Below are positions 2 to 16,523 of a stretch of DNA of 22,871 nt, in pieces. The first letter of the stretch is position 1. Every line of letters begins with the position of its first letter. A program made the translations under genes and the position numbers. The stretch spans positions 1 through 22,871 of the IMG/VR virus record IMGVR_UViG_3300012936_000186. One strand, 5' to 3'. The notes under the pieces are model-generated. The model made no database searches. It worked only from the letters and a program-made list of their open reading frames with translations, and was not told the DNA's origin. This DNA is from a virus.

Positions 2-1414
2 GAAATAGAACAATTTGTAAATAATCTAGTGCCTACAGATGTAGGAGTAGATAATGTTGGCGATTATGTTGTACGTTACGAAGGATTTACAGATGAATGT
101 AATGACGGACACGATGACAATTCTATAGATGATGTTTACGCAGATGCTTATCAAGACTTTGACAACAGACAAGGTCAGGAAGCAATGGTTAGAGGTGTAG
201 CATACGATGAACTTGGCTGTGATAATAATCCTGTGTTGTATAGTGTGTACAAAAATATCAATGAAGCAGTAAACCCAGATAAGATGACTGGTGATGAAAT
301 GAGGGAGTTATTGGATAAGAAACATTCATGGGACGATGGCATCCACAATCCAGAATTTATAAATGATGTAAGACGTCACAACTGGGTTTTAATAGACAAT
401 TACCCACTTGCTAAACTGGGTAGTGTAGAAGATCCTTATGATAGAATAATAGACACAGATGATGATTATGCTATGAGAGACTCAGATTTGTCAGAGCCCA
501 TTGTGATTGCTCCTGACAGAAAAAGTGTTATGGACGGAAATCACAGAGTACACAAAGCAAGGGAAATGGGTAAAACTCACTTACCAGCATACTTTCCAAT
601 GATAAAAGAAAACAAGTTTAACTTTAAATTAATAGACAATGAAATTACAGAAGGCAGATTGCTAAGGACTACCAATAACTTTAAAAAATTAACTGGACGT
701 GATGTAGCAGATTTACTATACTTAAACAGTTTGGTTATATACATTATGGCAAAAGATTCCAAGCAGTCAGATTTTGCACTAGGGTATGCCAGAAAAACAA
801 CACAATATGGTAATTACACTTTGTTTAGAACACATGCTACAGACATGTATTTGCTGTCATATATTGTAAATGATCCAGATTCCAAACAAATAAAATTAAA
901 AGACAGTATTTTTAGTAAACGATTTTTAAAAAGTTGCAAGTTCCAACCTAAAGAACATTCCAAATTCTTTTACAAACTTGCTACACAAGGCAAAGTACCA
1001 TTGGCTACAACATACTTTATGAGTTTGGAAAAACAAATTAAAATAAATGATTCCAGATATAAATCCTGGAGAAGAATGGCAGTGGATTGGGAACATTTAA
1101 AATACAGATCCAGACAATATATTGTAGCAAAAATTATACAGGAGTTTAGACGAATTGCTGTAACAAGCGAATTAGTTAGCAACCTTCAAACAATGACAAA
1201 ATATAGAAGTTATGATATCACTGACAAGTACAGCAGAAAACCTAGTACTGGTAGAAAAGTTGCTGGAGCAGTTGCTGGAGCAGTTGCAGGTGGATACGCA
1301 GGTAAAAAGATTGCTAAAAAATTAGGTAAAGATTCTGATAAATATAAGAAAGCAGGTGCAGGTATAGGAGCCATAGCAGGTTACTGGGCCGGAGGAAGAC
1401 AAAGACAAAAATGA
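2..1414 (+). CDS. ParB-like domain protein with C-terminal glycine zipper (5' partial)
   Basis: The reading frame is open from base 2 with no stop, so the gene starts upstream of the window; the GTG at 29 is only an internal codon. About 470 residues are visible. The nt 485-610 region has a ParB/sulfiredoxin-like fold signature: a strand (PIVIAPDRKSVM), then DGNHRVHKAREMG with the GxHR-type box at about nt 533-550. The middle (nt 640-1200) is a basic, aromatic helical region I do not recognise. The C-terminus (nt 1258-1400) is a Gly/Ala zipper (AGAVAGAVAGGYAGKKI and AGAGIGAIAGYWAGG), a pattern common in membrane-inserting segments. It overlaps the next gene by ATGA, so the two are translationally coupled. 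ParB-like modules without a partner ParA also occur in phage nucleases and modification proteins, so DNA segregation is not implied. A second ParB-like module lies in the 11046 gene. The fold call is moderately sure; the function is unknown. Confidence 0.75.
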   Translation, partial: EIEQFVNNLVPTDVGVDNVGDYVVRYEGFTDECNDGHDDNSIDDVYADAYQDFDNRQGQEAMVRGVAYDELGCDNNPVLYSVYKNINEAVNPDKMTGDEMRELLDKKHSWDDGIHNPEFINDVRRHNWVLIDNYPLAKLGSVEDPYDRIIDTDDDYAMRDSDLSEPIVIAPDRKSVMDGNHRVHKAREMGKTHLPAYFPMIKENKFNFKLIDNEITEGRLLRTTNNFKKLTGRDVADLLYLNSLVIYIMAKDSKQSDFALGYARKTTQYGNYTLFRTHATDMYLLSYIVNDPDSKQIKLKDSIFSKRFLKSCKFQPKEHSKFFYKLATQGKVPLATTYFMSLEKQIKINDSRYKSWRRMAVDWEHLKYRSRQYIVAKIIQEFRRIAVTSELVSNLQTMTKYRSYDITDKYSRKPSTGRKVAGAVAGAVAGGYAGKKIAKKLGKDSDKYKKAGAGIGAIAGYWAGGRQRQK

Positions 1415-1896
1415 AAATAAACGATATTATATTAGAAAAACTAGATCAAGCCGCGGTTGACCAGGTTGCCACGTCTTTAAAATCAAGTCCTGATCCAGAA
1501 GCTCAATTAACATATTACCATTTACAACGTGAAAGAGGTAACCCTGCTCATGTTAGTGTTGACTCTGCACAGCAAGTAGCAGAAAGAAAAGCCAAACTAC
1601 AAATGAAGCAAATAGAGGATATGAAAAAAAATAAGGAAGATCCTAATAATAAATTAAAACTTAAAAATAATGATGAAGTAAAGCAATATAGTGATAATTT
1701 CCGTGGAAATCAGTATGTTACTATAGCAAGAAAAGGATTACCTACAGAGTTAAAAGCATATTTACCTATTATAGACGAAGTAAATCCAGAAAAATTTTTA
1801 AAAGGAAACTGGAAAATAGGCGATAACCTTGCTAATCTAGGCGGTATTCAACAAATTAAAACACAGTCCAAATTAGGACGTAGTGTAAATCAATAG
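1411..1896 (+). CDS. Small putative internal head protein with capsid-targeting-like N-terminus
   Basis: This 161-residue protein starts at an ATG that overlaps the previous stop (ATGA). The N-terminus MKINDIILE|K matches the pattern of T4 internal-protein capsid-targeting peptides: a short amphipathic helix ending in I-L-E, the (L/I)xE recognised by the gp21 prohead protease. The body is a charged helical stretch rich in Lys, Gln and Glu (about residues 45-95), followed by a compact C-terminal part (NFRGNQYVTIARKGLP through KGNWKIGDNLANLGG). No enzyme motif is seen. I infer a capsid-internal virion protein from the tag and from the similarly tagged neighbours; the family is not recognised. 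Confidence 0.75.
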   Translation: MKINDIILEKLDQAAVDQVATSLKSSPDPEAQLTYYHLQRERGNPAHVSVDSAQQVAERKAKLQMKQIEDMKKNKEDPNNKLKLKNNDEVKQYSDNFRGNQYVTIARKGLPTELKAYLPIIDEVNPEKFLKGNWKIGDNLANLGGIQQIKTQSKLGRSVNQ

Positions 1897-1925
1897 ATAA
1901 TAACTCCCATTAAAGACACAATTTA

Positions 1926-1933
1926 GATAAATA
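1926..1933 (+). promoter_or_regulatory. T4-type late promoter (GATAAATA)
   Basis: Exact GATAAATA 46 nt before the ATG at 1980. T4 late promoters have TATAAATA at about -10 with no -35 box, and NATAAATA is the variant expected in marine T4-like phages. It is followed by a leader hairpin and a strong AGGAG ribosome site at 1968-1972. Confidence 0.8.
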
Positions 1934-1942
1934 AATGTAACG

Positions 1943-1957
1943 GCGATATTTTATCGC
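1943..1957 (+). promoter_or_regulatory. Leader hairpin of the first small late gene
   Basis: GCGATA (1943-1948), loop TTT, TATCGC (1952-1957): a perfect 6-bp stem between the late promoter and the ribosome binding site. It is placed like the hairpin at 2302-2315, with 9 nt after the promoter motif in both. A 5' mRNA-stabilising role is inferred. Confidence 0.55.
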
Positions 1958-1979
1958 TAAACATTTTAGGAGAAATATA

Positions 1980-2228
1980 ATGGCACAAGCAAACCCAAAT
2001 GCTGACGTAAGAGCGGCAAACGGACTAGTTGGTACAACTCATATTCTTTCAGTAACAGACGTTTCAGTTGTTTCAGTTGCGGCGGCTTGTTTAGAAGCAC
2101 AAAACGAAGGTTTTGTAGTTGTAGCAGTTGAAGATGACGTTACAAATGACGGATGTCACATCGCTTTACAAGGCGGAGCGGCAACACCTTCAATCACAGG
2201 TACCTCACTAGTTGTAACATTTAGTTAA
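1980..2228 (+). CDS. Small abundant virion protein (hypothetical)
   Basis: This 82-residue protein begins MAQANPNADVRAANG and has no signal peptide. It looks like a small alpha/beta or beta-rich domain (THILSVTDVSVVSVAAACLE, then EGFVVVAVEDDV, and ITGTSLVVTFS at the end). Its start is fixed by TAGGAGA at 1967-1973. It is a single-gene unit with its own late promoter, leader hairpin and rho-independent terminator, the arrangement expected for a protein made in high copy late in infection, such as a capsid decoration or minor head or tail protein. No similarity to a named family is recognised. The role is inferred from context only. Confidence 0.8.
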   Translation: MAQANPNADVRAANGLVGTTHILSVTDVSVVSVAAACLEAQNEGFVVVAVEDDVTNDGCHIALQGGAATPSITGTSLVVTFS

Positions 2229-2244
2229 GTTTTAACAACTTTAT

Positions 2245-2274
2245 AAAAAAGGGCATTTTACATGCCCTTTTTTT
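2245..2274 (+). terminator. Strong intrinsic terminator
   Basis: GGGCAT (2251-2256), loop TTTAC, ATGCCC (2262-2267), preceded by A6 and followed by T7. It closes the 1980-2228 unit. The A and T flanks would let it work in both directions. Confidence 0.92.
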
Positions 2275-2284
2275 ATCTTGAAAA

Positions 2285-2292
2285 GATAAATA
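2285..2292 (+). promoter_or_regulatory. T4-type late promoter (GATAAATA)
   Basis: Exact GATAAATA 45 nt before the ATG at 2338 and 10 nt after the T-tract of the previous terminator. Confidence 0.8.
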
Positions 2293-2301
2293 AAAGTAAC
2301 A

Positions 2302-2315
2302 GCGATATAAATCGC
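2302..2315 (+). promoter_or_regulatory. Leader hairpin of the second small late gene
   Basis: GCGAT (2302-2306), loop ATAA, ATCGC (2311-2315). Same stem core and same position relative to the late promoter as 1943-1957, but a different loop and different flanks. AGGAG at 2326-2330 follows. Confidence 0.55.
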
Positions 2316-2337
2316 GAAAGTAATTAGGAGAATTAAA

Positions 2338-2607
2338 ATGGCACAAGCAGATAGAAGAGCGGCGGCGGCTGGTGAGTTTATTGGTAAAGACGTATTCCTT
2401 AAGAGTTTTACTCAGCAATCAGGAAATATTAGTGCGGCACAATTAACAGCATTAGTTAGCTCAGTCCAAAACTTAAACCTTTCAGTATTAAAAGTTGGCG
2501 ACTTTACAGCAGACAGTCAAGCAGTTGTAAACTTTATTGTTGAAGGTGCTGACAACCTAGCAAACGGTGACATCGCAGGTCACGTTATTGCAGACGTTAG
2601 TTTCTAA
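2338..2607 (+). CDS. Small abundant virion protein (hypothetical)
   Basis: An 89-residue protein beginning MAQADRRAAAAGEFIGKDVF. It has a helix-rich first half (ISAAQLTALVSSVQNLNLSV) and a strand-rich end (AVVNFIVEGADNL, then GHVIADVSF). The start is fixed by AGGAG at 2326-2330. Like its upstream neighbour it is a monocistronic late unit with a leader hairpin and terminator. The shared MAQ start and unit architecture suggest a similar expression class, but clear paralogy between the two proteins is not visible by eye. The family is not recognised; an abundant structural role is inferred from the transcription signals. Confidence 0.8.
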   Translation: MAQADRRAAAAGEFIGKDVFLKSFTQQSGNISAAQLTALVSSVQNLNLSVLKVGDFTADSQAVVNFIVEGADNLANGDIAGHVIADVSF

Positions 2608-2625
2608 GTTTTTTTAAACTTATTT

Positions 2626-2654
2626 AAAAAGGCAGTTTTTTACTGCCTTTTTTT
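2626..2654 (+). terminator. Strong intrinsic terminator
   Basis: GGCAGT (2631-2636), loop TTTTT, ACTGCC (2642-2647), with A5 upstream and T7 downstream. It ends the 2338-2607 unit. Confidence 0.92.
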
Positions 2655-2668
2655 ATGACAGAAAAAAA

Positions 2669-2676
2669 GATAAATA
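2669..2676 (+). promoter_or_regulatory. T4-type late promoter (GATAAATA)
   Basis: Exact GATAAATA 30 nt before the ATG at 2707. A short AT-only inverted repeat (CTATT, loop AAG, AATAG at 2677-2689) follows immediately. If transcription starts about 6 nt after the motif, that repeat would be only partly transcribed. Confidence 0.8.
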
Positions 2677-2706
2677 CTATTAAGAATAGCAACATAGGAG
2701 AACAAC

Positions 2707-3078
2707 ATGGCGCAAACTAAAGTAAATCCAGTATGGGTTGACGAGGAAAACTTTTTTATAGGTTTAACTCCTTCATTTGTAGAAATTGGTTTTGGTGCGG
2801 CTGTAAATGCCAAAACTGGGCCAACTAGCACAATCCAAACAGTTATTCATGCCATACAAAATGAAAACGTAACTATTCTTGGGCATAGTGCATTGTATGA
2901 TACTAATCAGTCAATGGCTATTATGATTCAGGATGAAAAAGGTACAGATACATGGGACGGTTCAAACAGTGAAACTTTTGCCGCTCACTTGGAAGACGTT
3001 ATTCAAGCACTAGGAACAGTTGACGGTGTCAACTTAGCAAGTGCTACAGTTACAGCAAAAACATTTGAATTAGCATAA
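2707..3078 (+). CDS. Small virion protein (hypothetical)
   Basis: A 123-residue protein beginning MAQTKVNPVWVDEENFFIG, with AGGAG at 2696-2700. It has an acidic, mixed alpha/beta composition: a helix around IQTVIHAIQNENVTILGH, a strand around SMAIMIQDEK, a helix around FAAHLEDVIQALGTV, and a strand at ATVTAKTFELA. It is the third consecutive late promoter-gene-terminator unit. No signal peptide, membrane segment or enzyme motif is seen. It is probably a minor structural protein; the family is unknown to me. Confidence 0.8.
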   Translation: MAQTKVNPVWVDEENFFIGLTPSFVEIGFGAAVNAKTGPTSTIQTVIHAIQNENVTILGHSALYDTNQSMAIMIQDEKGTDTWDGSNSETFAAHLEDVIQALGTVDGVNLASATVTAKTFELA

Positions 3079-3097
3079 TAACTTATTCTTATTTTAG

Positions 3098-3126
3098 AAA
3101 GGGGACTTTTTAGTCCCTTTTCTTTT
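3098..3126 (+). terminator. Intrinsic terminator
   Basis: GGGACT (3102-3107), loop TTTT, AGTCCC (3112-3117), extendable by flanking A/T pairs and followed by TTTTCTTTT. It ends the 2707-3078 unit. Confidence 0.9.
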
Positions 3127-3150
3127 GACTGACATTTCTTCAACAAATCT

Positions 3151-3158
3151 GATAAATA
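3151..3158 (+). promoter_or_regulatory. T4-type late promoter (GATAAATA)
   Basis: Exact GATAAATA 30 nt before the preferred ATG at 3189. It is the likely driver of the long operon that follows, since no terminator is seen after 3593. Confidence 0.78.
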
Positions 3159-3188
3159 GTGTAATACAGATTAAGATTGGAGACACAG

Positions 3189-3593
3189 ATGGTTGGACAA
3201 AGATCAGGAGCAATGGGAAGTTCGGAAGTAGTTTCCGGAAACATTGAGTTTTATACATTGTTTACAACTATGGATATTACTAGAACAGGTGATTATTCAG
3301 ATAACACACAAAAAGATTTCGAAAGTATTGTACAGGTAATTGGTTTGAGAGCTCAGCCAGTTGTAATGAATAACCCAGTACAATTAAATGGTGTAGGTGC
3401 AAATGTATTAGAAAATTATGGAGCACCTAGTATCACTGGAGCAGGTTTTATTTTTAAATTTGCTTTTGAAAGAGAAGGAGTTCACACAGTTGATACACTT
3501 AAAGATGAACTAGATGGTATAGTTTTAAATGCTGGTACAGTAGATACTAAAAGTTCAATTAATATGGAATTTACTAAACAAGACTTATTATAG
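3189..3593 (+). CDS. Conserved-type T4-like phage virion protein (hypothetical)
   Basis: A 134-residue protein beginning MVGQRSGAMGSSEVVSGN. The ATG at 3189 is preferred over an in-frame TTG at 3177, because TTG lies inside the GGAG ribosome site (3179-3182) that serves the ATG. Sequence features (IEFYTLFTTMDITRTGDYSD, KDFESIVQVIGLRAQPVVM, and a C-terminal FIFKFAFEREGVHTVDTL) resemble, from memory, small structural proteins of marine T4-like phages. That resemblance is not verified here. It is strand-rich with no membrane segment. It follows a late promoter and has only 8 nt before the next ORF with no terminator, so it probably heads the operon running through 12836. Confidence 0.78.
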   Translation: MVGQRSGAMGSSEVVSGNIEFYTLFTTMDITRTGDYSDNTQKDFESIVQVIGLRAQPVVMNNPVQLNGVGANVLENYGAPSITGAGFIFKFAFEREGVHTVDTLKDELDGIVLNAGTVDTKSSINMEFTKQDLL

Positions 3594-3601
3594 AGAATAC
3601 A

Positions 3602-3841
3602 ATGCCTAAAAAGAGTGAACCCAAAACACAAATAAAGCCTTATATAGAGGATGGAAATATAGAAGCACATATAATTGCTGATATGTTAAGAATAGAAAGC
3701 ATCACTGCTGAGATAAGAGAATTCAAAGAAGTTACTAAACATAGATTAGACAAATTAGAAAATTGGATAATTGCTATTGTTGGATTAACATTTACAACTC
3801 TCGTCAGTATAGTAGTTGCATTAGTTACAAGTTTAATATGA
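3602..3841 (+). CDS. Small coiled-coil plus C-terminal membrane protein, XhlA-like (candidate holin)
   Basis: A 79-residue protein. Residues 20-52 form an amphipathic, coiled-coil-like helix (IADMLRIESITAEIREFKEV, then HRLDKLENW). Residues 53-79 are a strongly hydrophobic membrane segment (IIAIVGLTFTTLVSIVVALV) ending in TSLI. This order of a charged helix, a Lys-Leu-Glu-x-Trp turn and a terminal membrane span matches the haemolysin XhlA/holin-like architecture. A membrane role in lysis, or anchoring of an injected protein, is possible; neither is shown. The ribosome site is weak (AGAGAA). The stop overlaps the next ATG (ATGA), coupling it to the basic tagged protein downstream. Confidence 0.75.
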   Translation: MPKKSEPKTQIKPYIEDGNIEAHIIADMLRIESITAEIREFKEVTKHRLDKLENWIIAIVGLTFTTLVSIVVALVTSLI

Positions 3842-4122
3842 GATTAGAAGAGTTTGCAGACCAAATTTTAGAAGGCAGAATGGTTTGGCGTAAGATGGGA
3901 AACAAAGTCAAACGTGCTGTCAGATGTACTTCAGGTCCTAGAAGGGGACGTGTTGTTGCAACAGTTAGTCAGTGTGCAAAACCAATTAATATTAAAAAAA
4001 GATTAACACTTAAAAAAACTAAAGCAAGAATGGGTAGCAGAATGACAAGGAAAGCCCAAAGAACTAAAAGAGTTAATCCTGCAAGTAGAAGATTAAAAAC
4101 ACTTAACAAGAGAAAGTTTTAA
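3838..4122 (+). CDS. Very basic tagged internal protein with paired-Cys module
   Basis: A 94-residue protein. The ATG at 3838 overlaps the upstream stop and gives MRLEEFADQILE|GRM, a capsid-targeting-like peptide ending in I-L-E. A longer ORF from 3763 is only out-of-frame read-through of the membrane gene. The rest is extremely rich in Lys and Arg. It contains a Cys-paired motif (RCTSGPRRGRVVATVSQC, about residues 29-46) and then an Arg/Lys tail (KKTKARMGSRMTRKAQRTKR onwards). I infer a DNA-binding internal head protein, cut after residue 12 by the prohead protease. It overlaps the giant gene by TAATG. Confidence 0.82.
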   Translation: MRLEEFADQILEGRMVWRKMGNKVKRAVRCTSGPRRGRVVATVSQCAKPINIKKRLTLKKTKARMGSRMTRKAQRTKRVNPASRRLKTLNKRKF

Positions 4123-7100
4123 TGAAGCCTAAAGATTTTAGATCTATAGAAAGTATTCTTAAAGAGTACTCTATGAAGCCTGGAAGGACTCCTCCAACAC
4201 CTGTAAAAGATCTAGGTTTGAATGTTGCAAAAGCAACAGCATCAAAGGCCAAAGAATTGCAAAACATAGCAAAACGAGGTTCAGATATAGGTTCCAAATT
4301 TGCAATGGCATCTTCTGGAAAAGGAGGATCTTTTTTCCCTACTGCATCTAAGTCCATAGCAACTGGCAACCAGCCTAAAACATATAAACCAGTAAAAGCA
4401 AAAGACTTAAAATTAGACGATCAATTTGCAGACAAAGAAGGCAAGCCATTAAAAGTAATATCACCTCATAAAATGGTAAGCACAGCAAACCCAAATGATG
4501 TTGAAGATGTTGTGTTAGTACAAGACCCAGAAGGAAAAAATGAACCTATTGCATTAGACCCTGAAACAGACATCAAAGTTTCAGAAGGAAAACTTAGTAA
4601 AATAGCCAGCCGTAAAGGTAAAAAATTAAAAGTAAAAGATCTCAAAGCCAAAATTAAAAAACTGTCCAGAAAAAGACTAAAAGAAGCACCAGCAGAACTT
4701 TTTGAAATAAATTTTAACAAAAAAGAAGTAGCTCAAGAGGCATTGGACATGCCTGTACGATGTGGCTTTGAAGCAGAAACATTCTTTTATAATGTGTCAG
4801 GTGGTTCAGGTGAATACATAGATGACATGAGTGTGTCAGACTTTGAATACGAATATGGTGATTTACCAGATAGTGCTTATGAGTACTATGAGGACTGGTT
4901 GCGAGAAAAAGCCGCTGATGAGTATTTGGAAGGATACATAGATTCCTGGATATCAGAAAATCGTGACGAAGACGAGTGGATAGATGAGTTTATGACTTCA
5001 GGTGATGGTCCCACAATGGATGCTGTGGAAGAATACAGAGACCAAATGAAAGAAGATGATCCAGCCGAATATGAAAATCGTGAAGAGGATGGATGGGAAG
5101 ATGAAAACTGGGCAAGAGATTATATCAATGAGGAATATGAAACAGAGTACATAAATTTTCTGGAAGATATAGCCAGAGAAGATGATGATGTATTTGAAGA
5201 GGCTTTAGAAGAAGCCAGATCTGATTACAGCATGGACGAGTATGTTTCAGATCAGTATTACAGTTTAAGCAGTTTTCTAGATGACTTTGGTGTGGAATAT
5301 AATTATGGTGGAAGCCTGGAAGGTGTTGCTGAAGAATTAAACTCCTGGATAAAAGATAATAGTAAGTATGATGATTATCCAGAAACTGGTGACTATGGTG
5401 ATACTTACACTACAACAGGTTATGCAGTTGAGTCAGATAGCAGTATAGATGCAGATGAAGGTAAAGGTGCTGAACTTATTTCACCAGTTTTTGAATCTCC
5501 CAGAGAGATGCTAAGTGAAATGAAAAGTTTATTTGGGTGGGCAGAAGATAATTTTGGTACAAACAGTACTACTGGACTTCATGTTACAATGAGTTGGCAA
5601 GGTGAACCCAGAGGTGGCTCAGAGAAAAACGGACCCAACAAAGTTAAAATGGCATTACTATTAGGTGATTTATATTTGCTTAAATTGTTCAACAGATTAT
5701 CAAACAGTTATACCAGAAGTCAATATAAAAGTTTACTAAAACAAGCAGAAAAAATTAAGCAGGGAGACATGGACAGTTTCTTAAAATTACAGTCTGCATT
5801 AGAAAAAGGTGTAAGTCCTGATAAAATGATGTCTATTCATTTTAAAGACAGACAGAAAGATGATAAATCTGGCAACCAACTGATAGAATTCAGAATTATG
5901 GGTGGTACAGATTACCAAAATATGTATGAGCATATTGTAAAAACTGTTATAAGATATGCTACTGTAATGAAAGCAGGATATGACGATAAGGCTTACCTTA
6001 AAGATTATGGTCATGCTATGTTTAGATTGCTTAAAAAAGCAAAAGAAATAGATCCTAAAGAATTAGAACAATATGATTTAGACTCTCCAATTTTACAATC
6101 AGCAAAAAATATTGCTGGAAAATCAGATATGACTGTGATACTTCATAATTTTGATGTTAGTGTTATAAATTTAAGAGAGTATGAGCAACTTAACCAACCA
6201 GATGCTGACAAGCAATGGAAACAGGAAATAGCAGATTATGAAAAAGGCACTGGTGAAAAAGTTGAAATAGAAGAAGCACCTGTTGAGATTGGTGAACCAA
6301 TTACAGGATATATAATGCCTTCAGCCACAGCACCTAGCAGAAGAGCACCAGGCGTACTTCAGAAGGCACAGAAAAGTTTTGCCAGAGGTTTTAGTTTGTT
6401 GGCACAAAATATAGCAGAAGAGAAAAACACAGCAGATCCTAAAGCCAAAGATATTGCTAATTTTAGAAAATATATTAAGCAATTATCATTAGATGAACAA
6501 GGGTTAGCAAAATTAATACAACGAGATGTCACAGATAACGACAATAATGCCTCTGAAAATGATGCCATTAGATTACAGATGGTTAAAAAAGGTGTAGCAA
6601 AATTACTTAGAAAAGATATAATAACAGTTCCAGACTTTTTTAAACACCAGGACCTAGATAAAGTTGTAGACAGTATGTGGCAGTTCTTCCAGTCAGATGA
6701 TGCAAAAGATAATAAAGTAATAGATCAATTAGCAGACTTGTTTACACAAATAAATCCCAGACTTAAAAACAGAAAACCAGAAGTATTTAGAACTATAGTA
6801 CAACTTAGTAAGAAAAGACAAAAAAATGATTTATTCAGATACATCAAGGATGCTGGTTATGGTGCTGATGTAACTTTAATTACCCCTAATATGATTTCTG
6901 ATAGCAAAGCGATATCTAAATTGTACAAATTTTTAGAGCCATATCAAGGTTATGATCACCCAACAAGTAGAGATCATCATATTAATATCAGAAGTGATGA
7001 TAACTATGCTACAGTATTCCAGTATAGTATGGTACAAAAACTCAGAAACAGATTAGCCTATCTAAAAAATCTTGGTACCACAGATAAAGACAAATATGCT

Positions 7101-10100
7101 GATATCAAAGAGAGATTATTAAACATTGGTGACGAATTTTTAAGAAAATTAAAACCAGAAGATGAATATTTTAACAATCTTGAAAGAGATTGGAATCTCT
7201 ATTCAAAAGTAAGTGATGGAACTAGATTTTTAAGTATCGGCGATCTTGACAGATGGAATAATATGAGTGACAGGTTAGTAAAAATTAGGCAAGATGAAGA
7301 CGAAAGTACTTACAACTTTCCTCAGGCTTATGATGATTATGTATTAGGTAGTATAAATTTAGAAGCATATTACAACGCGAAGAAAAATGAAGAATACACA
7401 GACTTGTTTAAAGATAAATTTATAAAAAGTTTAATTAAGAAAAGATTTAAAGCATTAAAAGACTTCTTGACAAGTTTTGATAAAATATTTAGAGAAGAAG
7501 GTTTTTCAGATCTCAAAAATGAAATTTCAGGTAAAAATCAGTTAATTAAACGTAACAAAGACTTTGAAAAGAACGTCAGAGACAATGCCAAAGCAACATT
7601 AAATATACCTAGTCACAGTTATGTGTATTTAAATCGAGATTTTTATGATACAATTACTGATGATGATTATGGTGACAGAGCGGAATATTTAGATAATCAT
7701 TTAGAACATTTTAATGACAAAGTAAACAGTGGCGGAAAAGTTTATGTTATTCCTGCCGCACACTTTGGACAGGCAGAAGATGCCTACAGTGGACTAGAAC
7801 TTATAGAAACTATGGAAGGCGCAAATAACTATTATCACAGTTGGCGTAAAACAGGTTATAAAAAAATTATAAGTGCATTCTATGACAAATACAATGTGTA
7901 TTTTAGTGATTTAGTATATAGTAAAAATAAAACATATTTCCATGCTGGTGGAGATGAGTATGCTAAGTTACAACAATTAGGAATAGAAATTACCAGAAAA
8001 GGTGACAGCAGAACAGGTCAACCTGGTCAATCAGATTTAGTTGATAGAGATGAACTAAGAAATCCTAGAAGTGACGAGCCTATTGACAGAGGTAGTGCCA
8101 TGATGTGGAATCAGGGCGATGATCTAGATAAAGAACTAAAACGATTTAATGCTTTTGACTGGAGTGTGTACCCAGAAAAAATGAAAGGGTTAGTTGCTAA
8201 AGATCTCAAAGGCATGAAAGATCGCGAAGGATATTACAGTTTTAAAATAGCATTAGAAAATGTACTTAAACAAATATTAGATGGAGATATTGATTTAGCA
8301 TTAAACTATCAGGATAATGTAGAAGGAATGATAAAGGCGGCTGGTGTAGAAGATTATAAAGATGCCTCATCATCCGAAGTTGCTGATAGAACAAACTGGA
8401 ATAACCTAGCAAGATATTTAAAACTTAATTTAGGTGTAGATGACCAAGGTGTAAATTTACTTAGAAAAGTTTACAATCAATATGACAGTGATCACAACTG
8501 GAGACCAGAAGATCCAAGAGCAATAGGCACAGAAAGATGGGCCGCCGCAGTCAAGGCCGCATATGAATATATAGAAAAGAATTATACTGTAAGTGCTGGA
8601 AATTATTTTAGAAAAGATGCTGACGGTAATGCTGGTGATGATGTCAGTAGCATATATTCGAAACAACGAGATGATGACTCAGGATTCGATGTAACAACGC
8701 AAGATTATGATGATATGCGTAGAAAGTATCCTGATTTTAATACTATGATGGTGAATGGTATGCAGAATTATATATTAAGACCAGATACAAACAGACTAGT
8801 ATCGTTCCTTAAACAGCCAAAAAATGATGAAACATTCAAACGTGCTGTTTTAGTCAGTATGCAGAGAGAATATGAAGCAGATGCAGAACCAAATGATTTC
8901 CAAGGTCATTTAGCCAGAGCCAGAGTATATCTCCAAAATAGAATGAGAGATCTAAATAATAATCCTGGAGAAAGTGTATTTACTAAGTTCGATAAACTGC
9001 CTTTAGAAGAACAGTTGATTATTGTAAATGAATCTGAAGTTTTAGAAAAGTGGAGCAAAAAATACAAAGACAGTATAAATTGCAGTAATCCAAAAGGCTT
9101 TAGTCAAAAGGCTCATTGTGCCGGTAAGAAAAAGAAAACAAAAGAAACTATAGAAGCGGCTCAAGACTTAAACGCACTTATGAAAGGTATAGATTCTGAT
9201 TTAAAGAAACGTAAAAAAGATTCAAAAAAATTAGCAAACAAAAGTGTTTATGAAAGACCTTTAACAAAAGATGAAAAGAAAGATAAAGAAAAATATGTTA
9301 AAGGCATGAAGAAAAATACAAAAGACTTTAAAAAAAGATATGGTAAAGATGCTAAATCAGTAATGTATGCAACAGCAACCAAGATGGCAAAGGAAAGTAT
9401 TAGTGAAAATGTAAGCGAAGGTCCTAGCAGTCAAGCATTGCCAGACAATAGTATTCCAGGATTACTAAATGATATTTTATCACAGCCATTTCCTGCATGG
9501 GATCTTAAAAAACAATTTTTGGCCTACTATGCTGTACCTGATCCACAAATGCTATCAGACTTTAGGTATCATAGAGCAACACACGGAGATAATGGTTGTT
9601 TAAGAGGTATTTTACGTTTTTATATACAAAAACAATTAGATCCAAGAATTGTTAAAAAAATTAATTTAAATGAGCAAAGCAAATCCAGAGTAAAAGAAAT
9701 TATAAATGAATCTAGGGGACTGTATGGTAGACTCCCAGGTGATAAATTTAAAAGAGAAAATACTGAGATAGAGTTTCAAGATGTTACAAACTATCCTGAA
9801 ATTGGAAAGTTTGAAGATCCAGACAAAAGAGACGAAGCAATATCCCAATTAGAAAGTCAAATAGGTTCTCAAATAGAATGGATGAATATTCCTAACAAAG
9901 GAAGTTTAGGTTTTGCAATAGCAACATTAACAAACACTGAAAATAACGAAAAAATGTTTTGGGGAAGATACTTTAGAGAAATAACACCTAATATGATGGG
10001 TAAATGGTCCAATAAAGAAGTCCCACCAGGATGGCAGTTACAACATAATACTGCTCTTAAAATGGAAGCCGGCCTAGACCCTCAGCACTTAATTGCAACA

Positions 10101-11045: not shown

Positions 11046-12836
11046 ATGAGATTAAAAGAATTTACAAAAAATATATCAGAAGAGATTTATACATCTACAT
11101 TTGATAGCGACTTTGTTACTAAAGCAAAGACCCTTTATAATAAAGGAGATAAATTAGCTCTTATTAATCATATAAACCAACTGCAAATAAAAAGCAAACA
11201 AATCAATAACAAAGAACTAGACAAATATCTTGTAGACTTAAAATTAGAAGTAGAAGAAAATTTTGATGATGAAGAAGATATAGAATTACTAATAGATATG
11301 ATCGATGAGTTATTAAATCCTAAGCGACGTTTAGATGCAGAAGCCGGAGGCGGTGGTGGTGCCGGTGGCGGTGGTGCTGGTGCTGGTGGCGGTGGTGCTG
11401 GTGGCGGTGGTGCCGCAGGTGGTACTGGCGGAGCAACAGGCGGAACATCAGGCGGTGATGGTGGCGGAACAAGTTCAGGTGGAGACGGAGGGTCTGCAGA
11501 TGGTGGTAGCACCGGAGATAGTGGTACTACATCCTCCGATTCCACTTCCAGTGATGCTCCAGTTAGCAGAGGTTTTTATGGCATAGGAAGTATAGCACCA
11601 TATAAAAAATCTAAAAAGAAAAAGAAAAAGAAAAAATCCAGTTTTAAATTTGGACAAGGTATATATGAGGCAATAAAAGAAGTAGAAATTTGTCCTAAAA
11701 CAAGATCTAAAAATTGTCAGTGTGAAAGGCTTACAAGAATTTCAGAGGCAGAAGAAACAGTTAAAGCAATAGCACAATTAGAACATGCTGATGATGGTGT
11801 AGAAGGTGTTATTAAATTTAAACAAAGAGCAGGCAAATCCACAATTATAAAAGGTATAATCAGAGGATTGACTCCAGGTAAACACGGATTTCATATTCAC
11901 GAATTTGGTGATCTAAGTAATGGATGTGAATCAGCAGGTGCTCATTATAATCCAGACGGAGTAGAACATGGAAGTTTAGAACAAGGACATGTGGGCGACT
12001 TAGGAAATATCATAGCAGATAAATCAGGTACTGCTAGATTCCAAATAAAAGCAAATAGAGTTACACTTTCTGAAGTAGTTGGTAGAGCTATTGTTATACA
12101 TGCTGATGAGGACGACTTGGGTAGAGGTGGTGATGAAGAAAGTTTAAAAACAGGTAATGCTGGTGACAGAGTAGGTTGTGGTGTAATACGTTTAAGAGAA
12201 GTTATAGAAGAAAAATACATAAGGCCTACTTCTGATAAACATTTTGCTAGAAACGATCTTCCTCAAATTAAACGACCTGATATAGAAAATTCAGATTTTG
12301 AATACAAAGAAGGTAAAATCAGTATAGAAAAAATTAAACCTGTACAAACTCAACGTGTAGATGGATTAAGTAAAAAAGCAGAAGATGTATTTTTAAACAA
12401 TGAAGACAGACCATTTATTTTAGATAAAAACGGTTATTTAATAAATGGACATCATAGACTGGATGCCGCAAATATATTAGGTATTAGCAAAGTACCAGCA
12501 ATAATGATAGATGCAAACATTGAAGAAGTAATGGATTATTTCAGTCACAAGGTAAGTAACACACCAGTAATGTCTGAGTACGATAATTTTAATTTCCTTT
12601 TAAATAATTATCTTACACAAAAGAAAATCCTAAATGAATTAAAAGATGCCACAGACGAAAACTTTAAAGATGGCAAAGTAAAAGGCAAAAGTCGTCCAGG
12701 ACGAGTAAAGAAGGCAGGAGCCAGTTGCAAAGGTTCAGTAACCAGTTTGCGGAAAAAAGCAAAAAACAGCAGTGGTGAGAAGTCAAAAATGTACCACTGG
12801 TGTGCCAACATGAAGAGCGGTCGTAAAAAATCCTAA
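11046..12836 (+). CDS. Tagged fusion: Cu/Zn superoxide dismutase, ParB-like and basic C-terminal modules
   Basis: This 596-residue protein starts directly after the giant's stop. Residues 1-12 (MRLKEFTKNISE) are capsid-targeting-like. Helices lie at 15-95, a Gly4-Ala-type linker at about 99-168, and a Lys8-type run near 190-200. Residues 240-390 are a SodC domain with every metal ligand: H283 and H285 (GFHIHEFGD), H300 (GAHYNPDG), H308, H315, D318 (GHVGDLGN) and H352. The C294-C378 disulfide pair, R375 and the GNAGDRVGCGVI signature are also present. It should convert superoxide to peroxide and oxygen. Residues 410-500 are ParB-like (NGYLINGHHRLDAANILG, H469-H470-R471). Residues 545-596 form a basic module (SCKGSVTSLRKKAKNSSGEK, then YHWCANM) of a kind found in marine phage proteins. 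No secretion signal is seen. I infer packaging in the capsid. Confidence 0.92.
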   Translation: MRLKEFTKNISEEIYTSTFDSDFVTKAKTLYNKGDKLALINHINQLQIKSKQINNKELDKYLVDLKLEVEENFDDEEDIELLIDMIDELLNPKRRLDAEAGGGGGAGGGGAGAGGGGAGGGGAAGGTGGATGGTSGGDGGGTSSGGDGGSADGGSTGDSGTTSSDSTSSDAPVSRGFYGIGSIAPYKKSKKKKKKKKSSFKFGQGIYEAIKEVEICPKTRSKNCQCERLTRISEAEETVKAIAQLEHADDGVEGVIKFKQRAGKSTIIKGIIRGLTPGKHGFHIHEFGDLSNGCESAGAHYNPDGVEHGSLEQGHVGDLGNIIADKSGTARFQIKANRVTLSEVVGRAIVIHADEDDLGRGGDEESLKTGNAGDRVGCGVIRLREVIEEKYIRPTSDKHFARNDLPQIKRPDIENSDFEYKEGKISIEKIKPVQTQRVDGLSKKAEDVFLNNEDRPFILDKNGYLINGHHRLDAANILGISKVPAIMIDANIEEVMDYFSHKVSNTPVMSEYDNFNFLLNNYLTQKKILNELKDATDENFKDGKVKGKSRPGRVKKAGASCKGSVTSLRKKAKNSSGEKSKMYHWCANMKSGRKKS

Positions 12837-12843
12837 ATAAATA
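12836..12843 (+). promoter_or_regulatory. Late promoter variant (AATAAATA), leaderless geometry
   Basis: AATAAATAG overlaps the stop codon of the SodC fusion gene (TAA at 12834-12836) and ends 5 nt before the ATG at 12849. No ribosome site fits between. With T4 spacing, the start of transcription would fall at or next to the ATG. The same arrangement recurs at 13893. Confidence 0.55.
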
Positions 12844-12848
12844 GTCAT

Positions 12849-13901
12849 ATGACTATGGACCCCAATTTTTATATCTATAATTACTATGATACGTTAAGCG
12901 ATAGCATAAAGAAATCTTTAGATCATAATCATCATTACAGTACCAATAAAATAGATTTACATAAAATTAGGGAAACTTTTTACAATTCCACATTCAAATC
13001 TCCTTTACATGAAGATTGGATGGTAGATTGTCAAGATCCAAACTATACATACGAGTCTAAGTTTAGTATATCTGATACGCCTGAAAGGCATCAGGAATTA
13101 TTCAAAGATAAATTAGAAACTAAAATACTTGCAAATAATGGATATGCATATTTAGATGAAACTACAACCTGGAGGATAAAGGATAATGTAAGGTACAAGT
13201 ATAACAGTATGGGATTTAGATCACCAGAACTATCAGATACTCCTTGTGTTGCATTTTTTGGTTGTAGTCATACATTTGGCACAGGACTAGATCAAGAGCA
13301 TATTTGGCCAGAAGTATTATGTAAACAACTTGGAATGAGGTCTGTAAATATTGGTTTTCCTGCTAGGGGTATAGATATGTCTGCCATATATGCCAAATAT
13401 TTTTTTAAAGCGGAAATAAAAAACTGTAAAGCAATCATAATATTTTTACCTCCCCCAACAAGAAAAAGTACATTTCAACATATGATAGACCCTTATAAAA
13501 GTAAAATGAAATTTGCTTTAAGGCAAATGGAATGGCTTGACTCTAATAGAGAAGATTATTATGGTGGGGAACTATTTAGTGGAGACATACAAAATGGAAT
13601 GGCATATACATCTACTGATAACGATTGGCAAATAGCAAATGAAACAAAATTGTTAATGGCTCAGGATATTTTGGAAAAACATAATACTTTTGAAAGAACG
13701 TCCACTGCAATATCAGATATAGAACTATTAGCCAGAGATTTAAATATTCCTTTGCTTACATATTCCACTTTTACAGATGTTGAAATAGGCACTAGGCAAT
13801 CAACAGAATTTGCCAGGGACAATATGCATGGTGGAAAAAATATACATGAGGCATTTGCGAACAAGGTTGCACAAGAATTAAATGCAAAATTAGATAAATA
13901 G
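12849..13901 (+). CDS. SGNH/GDSL-hydrolase-like protein
   Basis: A 350-residue protein beginning MTMDPNFYIYNYYD; a second ATG at 12855 is possible. The SGNH-type core starts at about residue 130. Block I is AFFGCSHTFGTG with the nucleophile candidate S140. Block II is NIGFPARGID. The catalytic Asp-x-x-His is DNMHGG (D324, H327), near the C-terminus as in the family. Block III (GxND) is replaced by IIIFLPPPTRK, so it is atypical. Likely substrates are esters, for example acetyl groups on surface glycans, but nothing in the sequence fixes this. It lacks the capsid-targeting tag of its neighbours, so it may be a tail-associated or non-packaged late protein. No Shine-Dalgarno is visible; see the promoter at 12836. 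Confidence 0.8.
   Translation: MTMDPNFYIYNYYDTLSDSIKKSLDHNHHYSTNKIDLHKIRETFYNSTFKSPLHEDWMVDCQDPNYTYESKFSISDTPERHQELFKDKLETKILANNGYAYLDETTTWRIKDNVRYKYNSMGFRSPELSDTPCVAFFGCSHTFGTGLDQEHIWPEVLCKQLGMRSVNIGFPARGIDMSAIYAKYFFKAEIKNCKAIIIFLPPPTRKSTFQHMIDPYKSKMKFALRQMEWLDSNREDYYGGELFSGDIQNGMAYTSTDNDWQIANETKLLMAQDILEKHNTFERTSTAISDIELLARDLNIPLLTYSTFTDVEIGTRQSTEFARDNMHGGKNIHEAFANKVAQELNAKLDK
13893..13900 (+). promoter_or_regulatory. T4-type late promoter (GATAAATA), leaderless geometry
   Basis: Exact GATAAATA whose last bases are part of the upstream stop codon (TAG 13899-13901). It ends 5 nt before the ATG at 13906, and no ribosome site lies between. The following bases differ at one position from those after the 12836 motif (ATAAATAGTAATATG here, ATAAATAGTCATATG there). 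Confidence 0.65.
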
Positions 13902-13905
13902 TAAT

Positions 13906-14190
13906 ATGCTAATAAGAGAAATAATTACAGAAACGTCAGCAGGAGCAGTTGCCACAGTTGTAATGCCTATGAATAGCGATATGATAAAACGTCCTGGGCC
14001 TGTAGTTAAAAAGAAGAAGAAAAAGAAAGCCAAAGAAGGCACACGTTGTTGGAAAGGTTACGAAAAGAAAGGCACAAAGAAAATGTTTGGTAAAACTGTA
14101 CCAAATTGTGTCAAAAAAGAAGGCAAATCGCCTCACAAGAAAGGCACTAAAAAATACAAAAAGCATATGGCGGCCATGCACGCCGGGTAA
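13906..14190 (+). CDS. Lys-rich tagged internal protein with CW...C module
   Basis: A 94-residue protein. The N-terminus MLIREIITE|TSAG is a capsid-targeting-like peptide ending in I-T-E, which supports the ATG at 13906 despite the absence of a ribosome site. After a short linker and a Lys7 run comes a compact motif, CWKGYEKKGTKKMFGKTVPN followed by Cys (residues 48-68), which I know as a recurrent short module in marine phage proteins. A second basic motif (SPHKKGTKKYKKHMAAMHAG) ends the protein. I infer a DNA-binding internal head protein. It is followed after 1 nt by the next ATG. Confidence 0.82.
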   Translation: MLIREIITETSAGAVATVVMPMNSDMIKRPGPVVKKKKKKKAKEGTRCWKGYEKKGTKKMFGKTVPNCVKKEGKSPHKKGTKKYKKHMAAMHAG

Positions 14191-14191
14191 A

Positions 14192-14413
14192 ATGAAAGCA
14201 GTCAAAGACAAAAACAACTATGTTAATTTAATAAGCAGTTTAGAGGCTAAACTTTTCAATAAAGTTGACTTAAACGGCTTTTTAGGTGTAAATAATATGG
14301 ACGAAAGGGAATTTTATATTGCAGAAGAGATGTATAAAAAAGACATTCTGCAAAAAATTAATAAAGGTGAAGAACTTGGCTACAAAATCTACCCACAAAA
14401 AAAGAAACTATAA
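14192..14413 (+). CDS. Small hypothetical protein (possibly the 5' half of a split gene)
   Basis: A 73-residue protein beginning MKAVKDKNNYVNLISSLEAK. The ATG at 14192 lies 1 nt after the upstream stop; in-frame codons further upstream (from 14087) only shadow the Lys-rich gene. It is helical, with an acidic middle (MDEREFYIAEEMYKKDI) and a basic end. There is no capsid-targeting tag. It ends 10 nt after an A7 run (14397-14403). Removing one A would join it in frame to the ORF ending at 14795, giving one protein of about 200 residues. I cannot tell which arrangement is real. The function is unknown. Confidence 0.6.
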   Translation: MKAVKDKNNYVNLISSLEAKLFNKVDLNGFLGVNNMDEREFYIAEEMYKKDILQKINKGEELGYKIYPQKKKL

Positions 14414-14795
14414 TAAAAAACAATTAGCAAAAAAGTTAGATAATATTACTAAAAATGTTGCTAAACGCGGTGTTTATGTGGTTAAAAAAGTTGATCCTGG
14501 CTTTCATGTAGTTAATTATGTAACAAATAAAGTTTATGCTGAAAATGTTCCTTTTATTAAAGTAGCAAAAGATATTTGTACAACACTTAATGATAAAAAA
14601 GTTAAAGACAAGCCAGACTCACAAAGAATTAACAAGTTATGTGATAAATTTTATAAGCATTATAATGATATTCATTTTTACAAGCACACAATCTACTCAA
14701 CAAAAGACTTAGAACGTAGACTAATAGCACAGACTCGTTTGGAAGAAAGTGTTATGATGCTCAAAGAAGTCAAATACCAACTTTCTATCTACTAA
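14376..14795 (+). CDS. Basic helical hypothetical protein (start uncertain)
   Basis: This frame is open to 14795 and encodes a basic protein: NYNKKQLAKKLDNITKNVAK, then a possible small beta element (RGVYVVKKVDPGFHVVNYVT), then helices (INKLCDKFYKHYNDIH, and TKDLERRLIAQTRLEESVMM). No ATG lies near a natural start. The ATG at 14319 is deep inside the upstream gene, whereas TTG 14376 has an AAAGG 8 nt upstream. Alternatively this is the 3' half of the 14192 gene, separated by a one-base difference in an A7 run or by +1 frameshifting. The amino-acid character is continuous across the junction. The function is unknown. Confidence 0.55.
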   Translation: MATKSTHKKRNYNKKQLAKKLDNITKNVAKRGVYVVKKVDPGFHVVNYVTNKVYAENVPFIKVAKDICTTLNDKKVKDKPDSQRINKLCDKFYKHYNDIHFYKHTIYSTKDLERRLIAQTRLEESVMMLKEVKYQLSIY

Positions 14796-14799
14796 AAAC

Positions 14800-14821
14800 T
14801 TTTCAAATATTTTCTTGAAAA
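14800..14821 (+). repeat. AT-rich inverted repeat before late promoter
   Basis: TTTTCAA (14800-14806), 8-nt loop, TTGAAAA (14815-14821), ending 1 nt before the GATAAATA at 14823. It is a 7-bp stem without a following T-tract, so at best a weak terminator of the upstream genes. Confidence 0.35.
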
Positions 14822-14822
14822 T

Positions 14823-14830
14823 GATAAATA
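14823..14830 (+). promoter_or_regulatory. T4-type late promoter (GATAAATA)
   Basis: Exact GATAAATA 33 nt before the ATG at 14864. An AT-only inverted repeat (TATAA, loop CAT, TTATA at 14835-14847) and AGGAAG at 14852-14857 follow. Confidence 0.8.
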
Positions 14831-14863
14831 AGACTATAACATTTATATTTTAGGAAGATTATC

Positions 14864-16192
14864 ATGTTTATAAGAGAATTTAACCCAGCAGGAAAAACAA
14901 AGATTGATAAAATCAATAAGTTGTTATCCGAGCAATTCGGAGTGAAAATTGGTACTGGATTTCCTAAAAAAGAAAAACTTGAAACAGTTAGAGAAATGTC
15001 AAATATGGCAATTGTCAAACTTAAAGGAACCAGTAAACAATTTCAACTCGAACCTGAATATGCAAAATATTTAGGAATAAAAGATGTAATAGATACTATG
15101 CTAACAGAAGGCATGTATGCTGAATCACCAGCATATCAGTCCATGAAGCAAGAGCTAAATGACAACATTATCAAACTAATGGATTCAGGTTGTACTAATG
15201 AAGAAGCAATTTCACAATGTATGAACGACTTCAGAAAAGATCCTAGATATTCATATGATGATGAGCACATTAAGCCTATGGTTGTTTTAATGGCACAAAG
15301 ATATTTAGATGAGGCCGGTTGTGCTTCAGAATCAGTTGAGCACCCACTATCCAGTTCAATTAATGAGTTCCTTTTAAGTGAGTTGGCAAGAGAAACAGGT
15401 GTTGAACTTGATGAAAAAGGTTTCGGTGCTATAGAAGAAAAACTTAATGCATTTGCAACAGCAAGTGGTAAAAGCAGAGACTCAGTTGTAGAATTCCTTA
15501 ATGGGTTAGAGGAAGATGCAGTTGTAAATGGTATAAAATTCTTTGGTGCTAAAATTAGAGAAGCCAATTTTGCTGAAGCAACAAGATATGGTCATAGCCT
15601 TAGAGATAAAGGCATGAGCGATGAAGAAATTGGAAAAGAATTAAACATGTCAGCAGACGAAGTTAAAGACATGTTATCTAAAACTGAAGAAAAACCAAAA
15701 GCAAAAGCCAAAAAAGAAAGTATGTTTGATGACATCATAGACGATATGTTAGCAGAAGAACTTGAAGGCACATCAGTAGAAGAAGCAGAAGTTGTTATGG
15801 CTGTTAGAGCATTAGCAGACGACATTCAGGACCACGTTGAGAGATTGGGTAGAATGGTAAACGAAGATATTCCTGCTATTGCTGATCAAATGATACACGA
15901 ATTTGGTGCTGACAAGGCCGCTCAGTTTAAAGACTCAGCAGAGCAAACATTAAGTACAGCATTAGAAAGTGCCAAGCAAGCCAAAGACGGAGTAAATGAA
16001 TTAGTAGGCAGTATTACTGGTGAAGAAATGAATTTATCCTCAGGCGGAATTGGTGACTTAGGTGGTGACGATATGGCTGAACCAGGAATGGACGATTTAG
16101 GTGGTGACGACTTAGGAGATATAGATGTCAACGAACCAGCGGCGGCTGGACCTGAAGAAGAGCCATTGGGAAGAGCACCTATAGAGGTGTAA
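14864..16192 (+). CDS. Acidic tagged virion protein (442 aa)
   Basis: The start is fixed by AGGAAG 6 nt upstream and the late promoter at 14823. The N-terminus MFIREFNPAGKTKIDKINKL followed by LSE is a long capsid-targeting-like peptide, with (I/L)xE at residues 3-5 (IRE) and 21-23 (LSE). The body is helical and acidic. One helix-turn-helix-like stretch is visible (KGMSDEEIGKELNMSADEVK, about residues 250-269). The C-terminal 60 residues are Gly/Asp-rich and disordered (GGDDMAEPGMDDLGGDDLGD and following). No enzyme motif is seen. It starts a late unit with the next two genes. I infer an internal or prohead-core-like protein; a scaffold-like role would fit its acidity but is unproven. Confidence 0.82.
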   Translation: MFIREFNPAGKTKIDKINKLLSEQFGVKIGTGFPKKEKLETVREMSNMAIVKLKGTSKQFQLEPEYAKYLGIKDVIDTMLTEGMYAESPAYQSMKQELNDNIIKLMDSGCTNEEAISQCMNDFRKDPRYSYDDEHIKPMVVLMAQRYLDEAGCASESVEHPLSSSINEFLLSELARETGVELDEKGFGAIEEKLNAFATASGKSRDSVVEFLNGLEEDAVVNGIKFFGAKIREANFAEATRYGHSLRDKGMSDEEIGKELNMSADEVKDMLSKTEEKPKAKAKKESMFDDIIDDMLAEELEGTSVEEAEVVMAVRALADDIQDHVERLGRMVNEDIPAIADQMIHEFGADKAAQFKDSAEQTLSTALESAKQAKDGVNELVGSITGEEMNLSSGGIGDLGGDDMAEPGMDDLGGDDLGDIDVNEPAAAGPEEEPLGRAPIEV

Positions 16193-16193
16193 A

Positions 16194-16523
16194 ATGCTAA
16201 TACGTGATATTATCAGAGAAGGGTACGAAGCAGACTTAATCCAAAAAGTACAAGACATACTTGTAATGAAAATGGACTCTGGTGATTCACTATCTACAGA
16301 AGAATTTCAAAATTTGTTAAAAGACGAAGGTTATATTGCAACCACAGACGAAGTCATAAAAGCAGTAAATGACAGTGGTTATGCAAGTAGCATAGATAAA
16401 GAACAAATTAAACTTAAAAATCAAATGCCTGCAGACGTTGATACTGGTGAAGAAGAGCCATCAGTAGATGTAGGTAAAATGGCTGGCGATCAAGCCATGA
16501 AGGATATTAAGTCGGAGTTATAA
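16194..16523 (+). CDS. Small acidic tagged virion protein
   Basis: A 109-residue protein whose ATG lies 1 nt after the previous stop. The N-terminus MLIRDIIRE|GYEADL is nearly the same as that of the 13906 gene (MLIREIITE), although the bodies are unrelated, which shows a transferable tag. The body is a helical, EF-like alternation of helices (ADLIQKVQDILVMKMDSGDS, then STEEFQNLLKDEGYIATTDE) and a disordered acidic tail. I see no proper calcium loop. It overlaps the next gene by TAATG. I infer a capsid-internal protein. Confidence 0.8.
   Translation: MLIRDIIREGYEADLIQKVQDILVMKMDSGDSLSTEEFQNLLKDEGYIATTDEVIKAVNDSGYASSIDKEQIKLKNQMPADVDTGEEEPSVDVGKMAGDQAMKDIKSEL

Follow-up and report, generated by a model that had tools for sequence, protein, structure and literature searches.

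Seven proteins encoded in a 22,871-nucleotide stretch of viral DNA, hereafter the window, very probably begin with propeptides that target them to the prohead, in the manner of the capsid-targeting sequence (CTS) found on the T4 internal proteins (IPs), gp24 and Alt. The window is the complete IMG/VR record IMGVR_UViG_3300012936_000186; it holds 20 genes, and all substantial genes lie on the plus strand. The tagged genes start at positions 1411, 3838, 4122, 11046, 13906, 14864 and 16194 and are named here by these positions. According to the proposed mechanism, the short hydrophobic helix would dock the protein into the prohead core, a gp21-type S77 protease would then cut after (I/L/V)xE, and the mature protein would stay with the DNA inside the filled head. 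Delivery into the host may follow, by analogy with the T4 internal proteins and Alt.

Tag pattern and conservation

The seven N-termini had been singled out in an earlier inspection of the letters alone (the sequence-only reading), and all of them read exactly as given there. The residues up to the predicted cut number 9, 12, 15, 12, 9, 23 and 9 in gene order; the capsid-targeting propeptides of T4 have ∼10–20 residues (PMC5694885). The bodies behind the tags had been called unrelated, and this was confirmed, as they share no Pfam or PHROG family and fall into separate ortholog groups. The informative signal was found to be M-[KRLF]-hydrophobic-x-[DE]-hydrophobic ahead of (I/L/V)xE. Mutagenesis of IPIII has assigned targeting mainly to residues 4 and 7 and processing to residues 8 and 10 (PMC9026906). 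MKINDIILE, MLIREIITE and MLIRDIIRE keep the hydrophobic/Glu spacing of IPIII, shifted by one residue toward the start, and the 4122 tag has a proline in place of the first hydrophobic residue.

Features of the window (the residue given for each tag is the one that follows the predicted cut)
Feature	Position	Strand	Remarks
IDNEITE, possible internal cut site before GRLLR	632..652	+	Stand-alone homologs begin nearby
Tag MKINDIILE	1411..1437	+	161-residue protein (1411-1896); predicted cut after E9, K10; match to the compact pattern
Sites similar to late-promoter-like NATAAATA	1926, 2285, 2669, 3151, 17549, 20738		
Untagged protein	3189..3593	+	Ortholog of PA5oct gp250 (detected by mass spectrometry), match E 1.9e-26
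Tag MRLEEFADQILE	3838..3873	+	G13; body of 82 residues, very basic
Tag MKPKDFRSIESILKE	4122..4166	+	Y16; 2307-residue protein
Amidoligase_2-like region of 4122	4734..6041 (approximate)	+	
Tag MRLKEFTKNISE	11046..11081	+	E13; 596-residue fusion protein
Internal leader GIYEAIKEVEICPKTRSKNCQCERLTRISE of 11046	11661..11747	+	Predicted cut before AEE; counterpart of the N-terminus of stand-alone superoxide dismutase homologs
Cu/Zn superoxide dismutase domain	11799..12188	+	PF00080, E 6e-45, whole domain
ParB-like domain of 11046	12201..12602	+	Several PHROG ParB-like families, best 6.7e-6
Basic Cys-containing conserved domain of 11046	12648..12833	+	Stand-alone behind its own tag (MKIVEITENFADGKKKGKSRPGRVKKAGASCK...) in L053/G003
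Tag MLIREIITE	13906..13932	+	T10; Lys-rich body
T4-type late-promoter-like NATAAATA	14823..14830	+	41 bp before gene 14864
Tag region MFIREFNPAGKTKIDKINKLLSE (MFIREF...NKLLSE)	14864..14932	+	Q24; body orthologous to PA5oct gp247
Tag MLIRDIIRE	16194..16220	+	G10; body orthologous to PA5oct gp246
Untagged protein	16523..16843	+	Ortholog of PA5oct gp245 (detected by mass spectrometry), match E 4.4e-25
Untagged tail-fibre-like protein	17582..20260	+	Mtd_N-like N-terminus

When the orthologs of each family were compared, [ILV]xE was found at positions 7–25 in 6/8 (3838), 7/7 (4122), 12/13 (13906), 33/34 (14864) and 32/34 (16194) members, against 0–20% in most untagged families; three untagged families reach 40–53%, namely 2707 (only two members), 12849 and 16870. 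The 3838 misses were due to start-calling (a TTG start in locus L053, an upstream ATG in L003), and the tag was present once these were corrected. The tags of the 3838 orthologs vary in sequence and length, end in [ILV]xE and are followed by [AGT]-[RK]-MVW. Nine distinct tags were observed among the 4122 orthologs, every one ending in [ILV]xE before Y-[SG]-M, together with 10 distinct tags in the 13906 family and 31 distinct N-termini in the 16194 family. Judged from these alignments, the families 3838, 4122, 13906 and 16194 fit what a removable tag would produce. The 14864 family keeps the N-terminal core, and the Glu is not always kept.

A compact pattern modelled on the determinants in T4, hydrophobic-x-[DEQNK]-hydrophobic-hydrophobic-x-E, matched 3 of the 20 window genes. 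It also matched 93 of 1785 genes in related loci, compared with 3.2 expected from internal positions (∼29-fold), a count that is inflated by orthologs because the loci were fetched using two of the tagged proteins. A broader core was found on 69 separate body clusters, some chance matches included. When T4 was scanned with the compact pattern, 6 of 275 genes were picked: ipII, ipIII, gp24, Alt, gp2 and 61.1. The tag core is also clustered, since on contig G003 it was found in 8/23 genes of the block that corresponds to the window and in 2/349 others (p=2e-9), and the counts inside and outside the block were 8/24 and 0/98 on G002 and 6/20 and 3/129 on G001.

Gene block, lineage and virion membership

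The window is a fragment without head genes. Three contigs (340, 130 and 102 kb) are syntenic with its gene block, and a fourth, of 82 kb, is so in part. G003, the 340-kb contig, has genes for a gp21-type protease and for a gp23 that is 70% identical to that of the Pseudomonas jumbo phages PA5oct, MIJ3 and Paride; identity is 62–64% to that of Cronobacter GAP32 and of a jumbo phage of Vibrio. Because of these identities, the lineage of the window is, on the gp23 sequences, the PA5oct/GAP32-like jumbo branch of T4 relatives, and a cyanophage-type origin was ruled out. The sequence-only reading had spoken of a marine T4-like phage, which stands for the extended T4 group but not for the cyanophage type. 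A gp21-type S77 protease is present with tagged genes in the relatives G003, G013 and G014, and gp21 and gp23 are found on contigs bearing tagged superoxide dismutases (SODs, see below).

Late-promoter-like NATAAATA sites stand ahead of transcription units, and 8 of the 12 copies of ATAAATA lie within the 633 bp of intergenic DNA (12.6/kb vs 0.52/kb overall). The best explanation is that the block upstream of nrdA is late-expressed and encodes virion proteins, some of them tagged.

To compare the block with a measured virion, the PA5oct proteins marked in the record annotation as detected by electrospray tandem mass spectrometry (ESI-MS/MS; MS below) were taken as the virion set, with a background of 90/483. 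PA5oct gp243–gp250, directly upstream of nrdA, have the same order as the window block. The orthologs of 14864 (gp247; hidden Markov model (HMM) match E 6e-40) and 16194 (gp246, MKIKDILVE; HMM match E 2.7e-11) were both MS-detected; the matches listed in the table for 3189 and 16523 are also HMM matches. A core derived from the window tags was found in 7 PA5oct proteins, 5 of them MS-detected (p=0.003); when the core was widened to other aliphatics, 11 proteins were found, 8 of them MS-detected (p=1.1e-4). One MS-detected protein, gp333, is encoded between the portal and the gp21 protease, in the position of T4 gp67, starts MKINDIITE and is a probable core protein. A tblastn search of cultured phages gave no direct homologs for 14192, 14864 or 16194, and 13906 shared with cyanophages a short Cys motif and nothing more. 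The T4-like, capsid-targeting character proposed for the tag is supported by the IPIII spacing, the clustering in the late block, gp21 and gp23 on contigs with tagged genes and the PA5oct virion enrichment.

The tag marks virion proteins, and untagged neighbours are virion proteins too. The untagged genes had been offered as an internal contrast, which is invalid because the orthologs or counterparts of 3189, 16523 and 17582 are PA5oct virion proteins (for 17582 the counterpart, gp243, was assigned by N-terminal resemblance and gene order only). Untagged genes were accordingly dropped as negative controls.

Several observations weigh against the targeting reading. The (I/L)xE motif, which the sequence-only reading had treated as the mark, does not serve as one: a loose [IL]xE lies within the first ∼25 residues of a large share of all genes, and in PA5oct (I/L)xE occurs in 89 of 483 called genes, among which virion proteins are not over-represented (odds ratio 1.2, p=0.28). 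The loose motif, common and without a link to virion membership, was dropped as a virion predictor. The compact pattern alone gave p=0.43 with the virion proteins of cyanophage S-SCSM1 and p=0.1 with those of PA5oct, each singly. A position matrix trained on the marine tags ranked gp24 first in T4 and the IPs 49–61 of 275; it was rejected as a blind test, gp24 alone having come top, and because of these ranks the resemblance of the tags to T4 is one of pattern, not of sequence. The cut site given earlier for 14864 is not strictly conserved (SK in L081 and L050, GD in L099, KS in PA5oct) and is uncertain, because the Glu is not kept in all orthologs. For gene 1411, a weak point, one distant relative was found outside the window (G003, MKISDIILE). 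Furthermore, the 22.9-kb fragment does not contain its own gp21, only two tagged window families (14864 and 16194) have orthologs in a measured virion, and the PA5oct virion list contains likely contaminants, e.g. ribonucleotide reductase and thymidylate synthase.

The common loose motif, the low matrix ranks of the T4 IPs and the varying 14864 site speak for convergence, in which the tags would be amphipathic helices of the ordinary kind on late proteins, with (I/L)xE a coincidence. We regard this as quite improbable, since the variable tags of the 3838 family end at an invariant Glu ahead of a conserved body, SODs of two unrelated families each carry an N-terminal extension that ends in (I/L)xE, and the compact pattern exceeds its null in the related loci and, in T4, selects for the most part proteins already known from the virion.

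Superoxide dismutases and other cargo

The cargo identities, which the sequence-only reading had missed, include SOD, amidoligase-like and ParB-like domains. When the SOD domain of 11046 was aligned to solved SODs, the Cu/Zn ligand motifs, the disulphide cysteines and the catalytic Arg were all present, and a search for the Cu/Zn-SOD gave at least 128 matching viral-contig stretches. The leader of marine phage Cu/Zn-SODs has a shared CPxT...CxC motif (window 11661–11747, L176–L255). At the end of the phage Cu/Zn-SOD leaders, [ILV]xE stands before A, S or D in 36 of 37, and before Ala in 30. The CxC beside the SOD, just ahead of the cut site, is reminiscent of copper chaperones, and by this analogy it could load copper before the leader is removed.

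In the blocks of L053, L042, L011 and L010, an Fe/Mn-SOD takes the place of the Cu/Zn-SOD, and the two were not found together in one locus among the loci compared. The Fe/Mn-SOD tag is, e.g., MKLHDFLTE-D, and the alignment to solved SODs starts only at residue 17. N-terminal extensions, containing LTE, FLE or ILE, are also seen on the more distant Fe/Mn-SODs of L058, L062 and L068. The Fe/Mn- and Cu/Zn-SODs are non-homologous, each with its own N-terminal extension ending in (I/L)xE. We tentatively suggest, at a little under an even chance, that SOD is an exchangeable capsid cargo of marine PA5oct/GAP32-like jumbo phages, with two unrelated families tagged alike at one locus, and that it would be delivered with the DNA to suppress host superoxide early. 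That unrelated SODs replace each other under a like tag suggests that superoxide exerts selection on the particle or in the first minutes of infection. No relevant paper on phage SOD and tag was found in the literature searched.

The cargo may in addition be polyproteins, with the gp21-type protease also cutting internal tag junctions and releasing separate enzymes in the head; this would add to the targeting reading, and we consider it possible, though with the balance somewhat against it. Residues 206–234 of 11046 correspond to the N-terminal leader of the stand-alone SODs, a second leader with a RISE-A junction, and most of residues 1–205 has a counterpart as a separate protein (L084:2535-3107) starting MKIRQLYE. 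In gene 29-1414 an EITE-G marks the point at which stand-alone homologs start, and the stand-alone homologs near IDNEITE begin with (I/L)xE-S-[RK]-L or CE-SRL. Some fused SODs (L209), in contrast, have the domain deep inside the protein, where release is not clearly needed. As a side observation, this 5′-truncated gene (2-1414, i.e. 29-1414) contains a part like the ParB-like region of relatives of the SOD protein and a glycine-zipper domain, joined at EITE-G. The ∼55-residue basic domain at window 12648–12833 (GKSRPGRVKKAGASCKGSV..LR..AK...KMYHWCANMKSG) was observed in dozens of phage loci (L012–L071) with up to 80–90% identity, and no clear Pfam family was found for it.

Among the aligned members of the 4122 family, 12/17 match PF12224 (best E 3.7e-11), and the window protein itself gave no match to it. 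In a fold search with 4122 glutamine synthetases came out best, weakly, and a PDB sequence search with the 2307-residue protein gave no match. The motif KWSKKYKDSINCSNPKGFSQKAHCAGKKKK (window 9279–9395, residues 1720–1758 of 4122) recurs in gp111 of cyanophage P-TIM68, which is encoded just downstream of the capsid gene and has a tag-like N-terminus, MMKSFIDFSE. With isoelectric points of 12.0 and 10.4, the predicted mature forms of 3838 and 13906 are highly basic, as DNA-associated internal proteins usually are. T4 gp61.1 (L107:18966-19130), annotated as hypothetical, begins MKTFKEFIKE, then ...TTSGAVVNKGPEQIPKKKK, and its layout matches that of the 13906 family (tag, TTSAGAVATV, Lys-rich); going by this layout, it may be an overlooked internal head protein. 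In the same block of another relative (L092:256-1050), a tagged PARP-like (ADP-ribosyltransferase-like) protein, MRFHEIVAE-KK...VYHGTS, was observed below the Pfam cut-off; it is reminiscent of T4 Alt.

The tag predicts that a protein enters the prohead core and does not predict injection, because T4 gp24 and PA5oct gp333 carry it; the earlier proposal of capsid-loaded proteins delivered into the host is supported for the loading and not for the delivery. The tagged proteins could accordingly be targeted to the prohead as structural or core proteins, with SOD guarding the DNA and the particle from oxidation in sunlit water and with no purposeful host delivery. We consider this unlikely, though not negligibly so. 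It fits two proteins that bear the same kind of tag and are not effectors (T4 gp24 and the PA5oct protein in the place of gp67), the acidic 14864 and 16194 families (14864 being modelled almost entirely as helix, like a core protein) and the virion membership of untagged neighbours. The tagged head proteins of T4, however, include the host-acting enzyme Alt, and CTS-fused enzymes get delivered (PMC9026906). The activity of the tagged PARP-like protein would make little sense within a particle.

Injected phage proteins are hard to spot by sequence because their bodies share nothing. On the prohead-targeting reading, a tag whose pattern is defined (hydrophobic-x-[DE]-hydrophobic followed by [IL]xE) can be searched for throughout a large marine lineage and among the cultured relatives of that lineage, and it suggests that marine PA5oct/GAP32-like phages have preformed enzymes packed in the particle. 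As far as the literature searched shows, the spread of CTS tags through the jumbo lineage and their presence on SODs of two unrelated families at a single locus are new, and CTS tags themselves are known from T4.

Comparison with known systems

PA5oct (Arenbergviridae) is close in its gp245–gp250 and gp333: orthologs of 3189, 14864, 16194 and 16523 are syntenic just upstream of nrdA, and gp246 and gp333 carry the tag. It differs in that no SOD, 2307-residue amidoligase-like protein, 3838 family or 13906 family was found there.

The NMNAT of S-SCSM1 (ORF91), listed in an MS-defined virion proteome, starts MKSFLQFLKE-A, in T4 register, and is an independent case of an enzyme with a CTS-like tag. 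Unlike the window, S-SCSM1 is a cyanophage of the Kyanoviridae, and the passages of its paper that were covered do not mention a tag. A hypothetical protein of the same phage, ORF30 (L144:44215-44535), has a T4-like tag (MKTFKQFMSE-S...) and lies between two virion proteins; it is not MS-listed.

To our knowledge, no CTS-type leader is known on the SOD of chlorovirus PBCV-1. That enzyme, A245R, is likewise a virus-coded Cu/Zn-SOD, and its packaging in the virion is reported (PMC7019647), whereas packaging is predicted here. PBCV-1 is a eukaryotic virus, and the phage enzymes differ by the CPxT...CxC leader and often by domain fusions.

Polyvalent proteins are injected by phages (PMC5512222). 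In that setting the literature searched names neither SODs nor a cleavable CTS tag. Like these proteins and T4 Alt, the cargo described here comprises large late proteins made up of several domains, among them ParB-like and ADP-ribosyltransferase-type ones, with predicted host entry together with the DNA; 11046 is multidomain in the polyvalent sense, with SOD, ParB-like and basic domains and late-promoter-like sites nearby.

The closest system is the gp21-cut CTS of T4 (IPI–IPIII, gp24 and Alt), the only one whose function is proven. The tags of the window differ from it in their start, M-[KRLF]-[IL]-x-[DE]-[IF], one residue shorter than the MKTYQEF of T4, in a spacer of 0–14 residues and in a far larger set of bodies. 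Both are short and N-terminal, with hydrophobic residues at the mapped positions, an (I/L/F)xE end and unrelated bodies behind them, and a gp21-type S77 protease is found in the phage group of the window as well.

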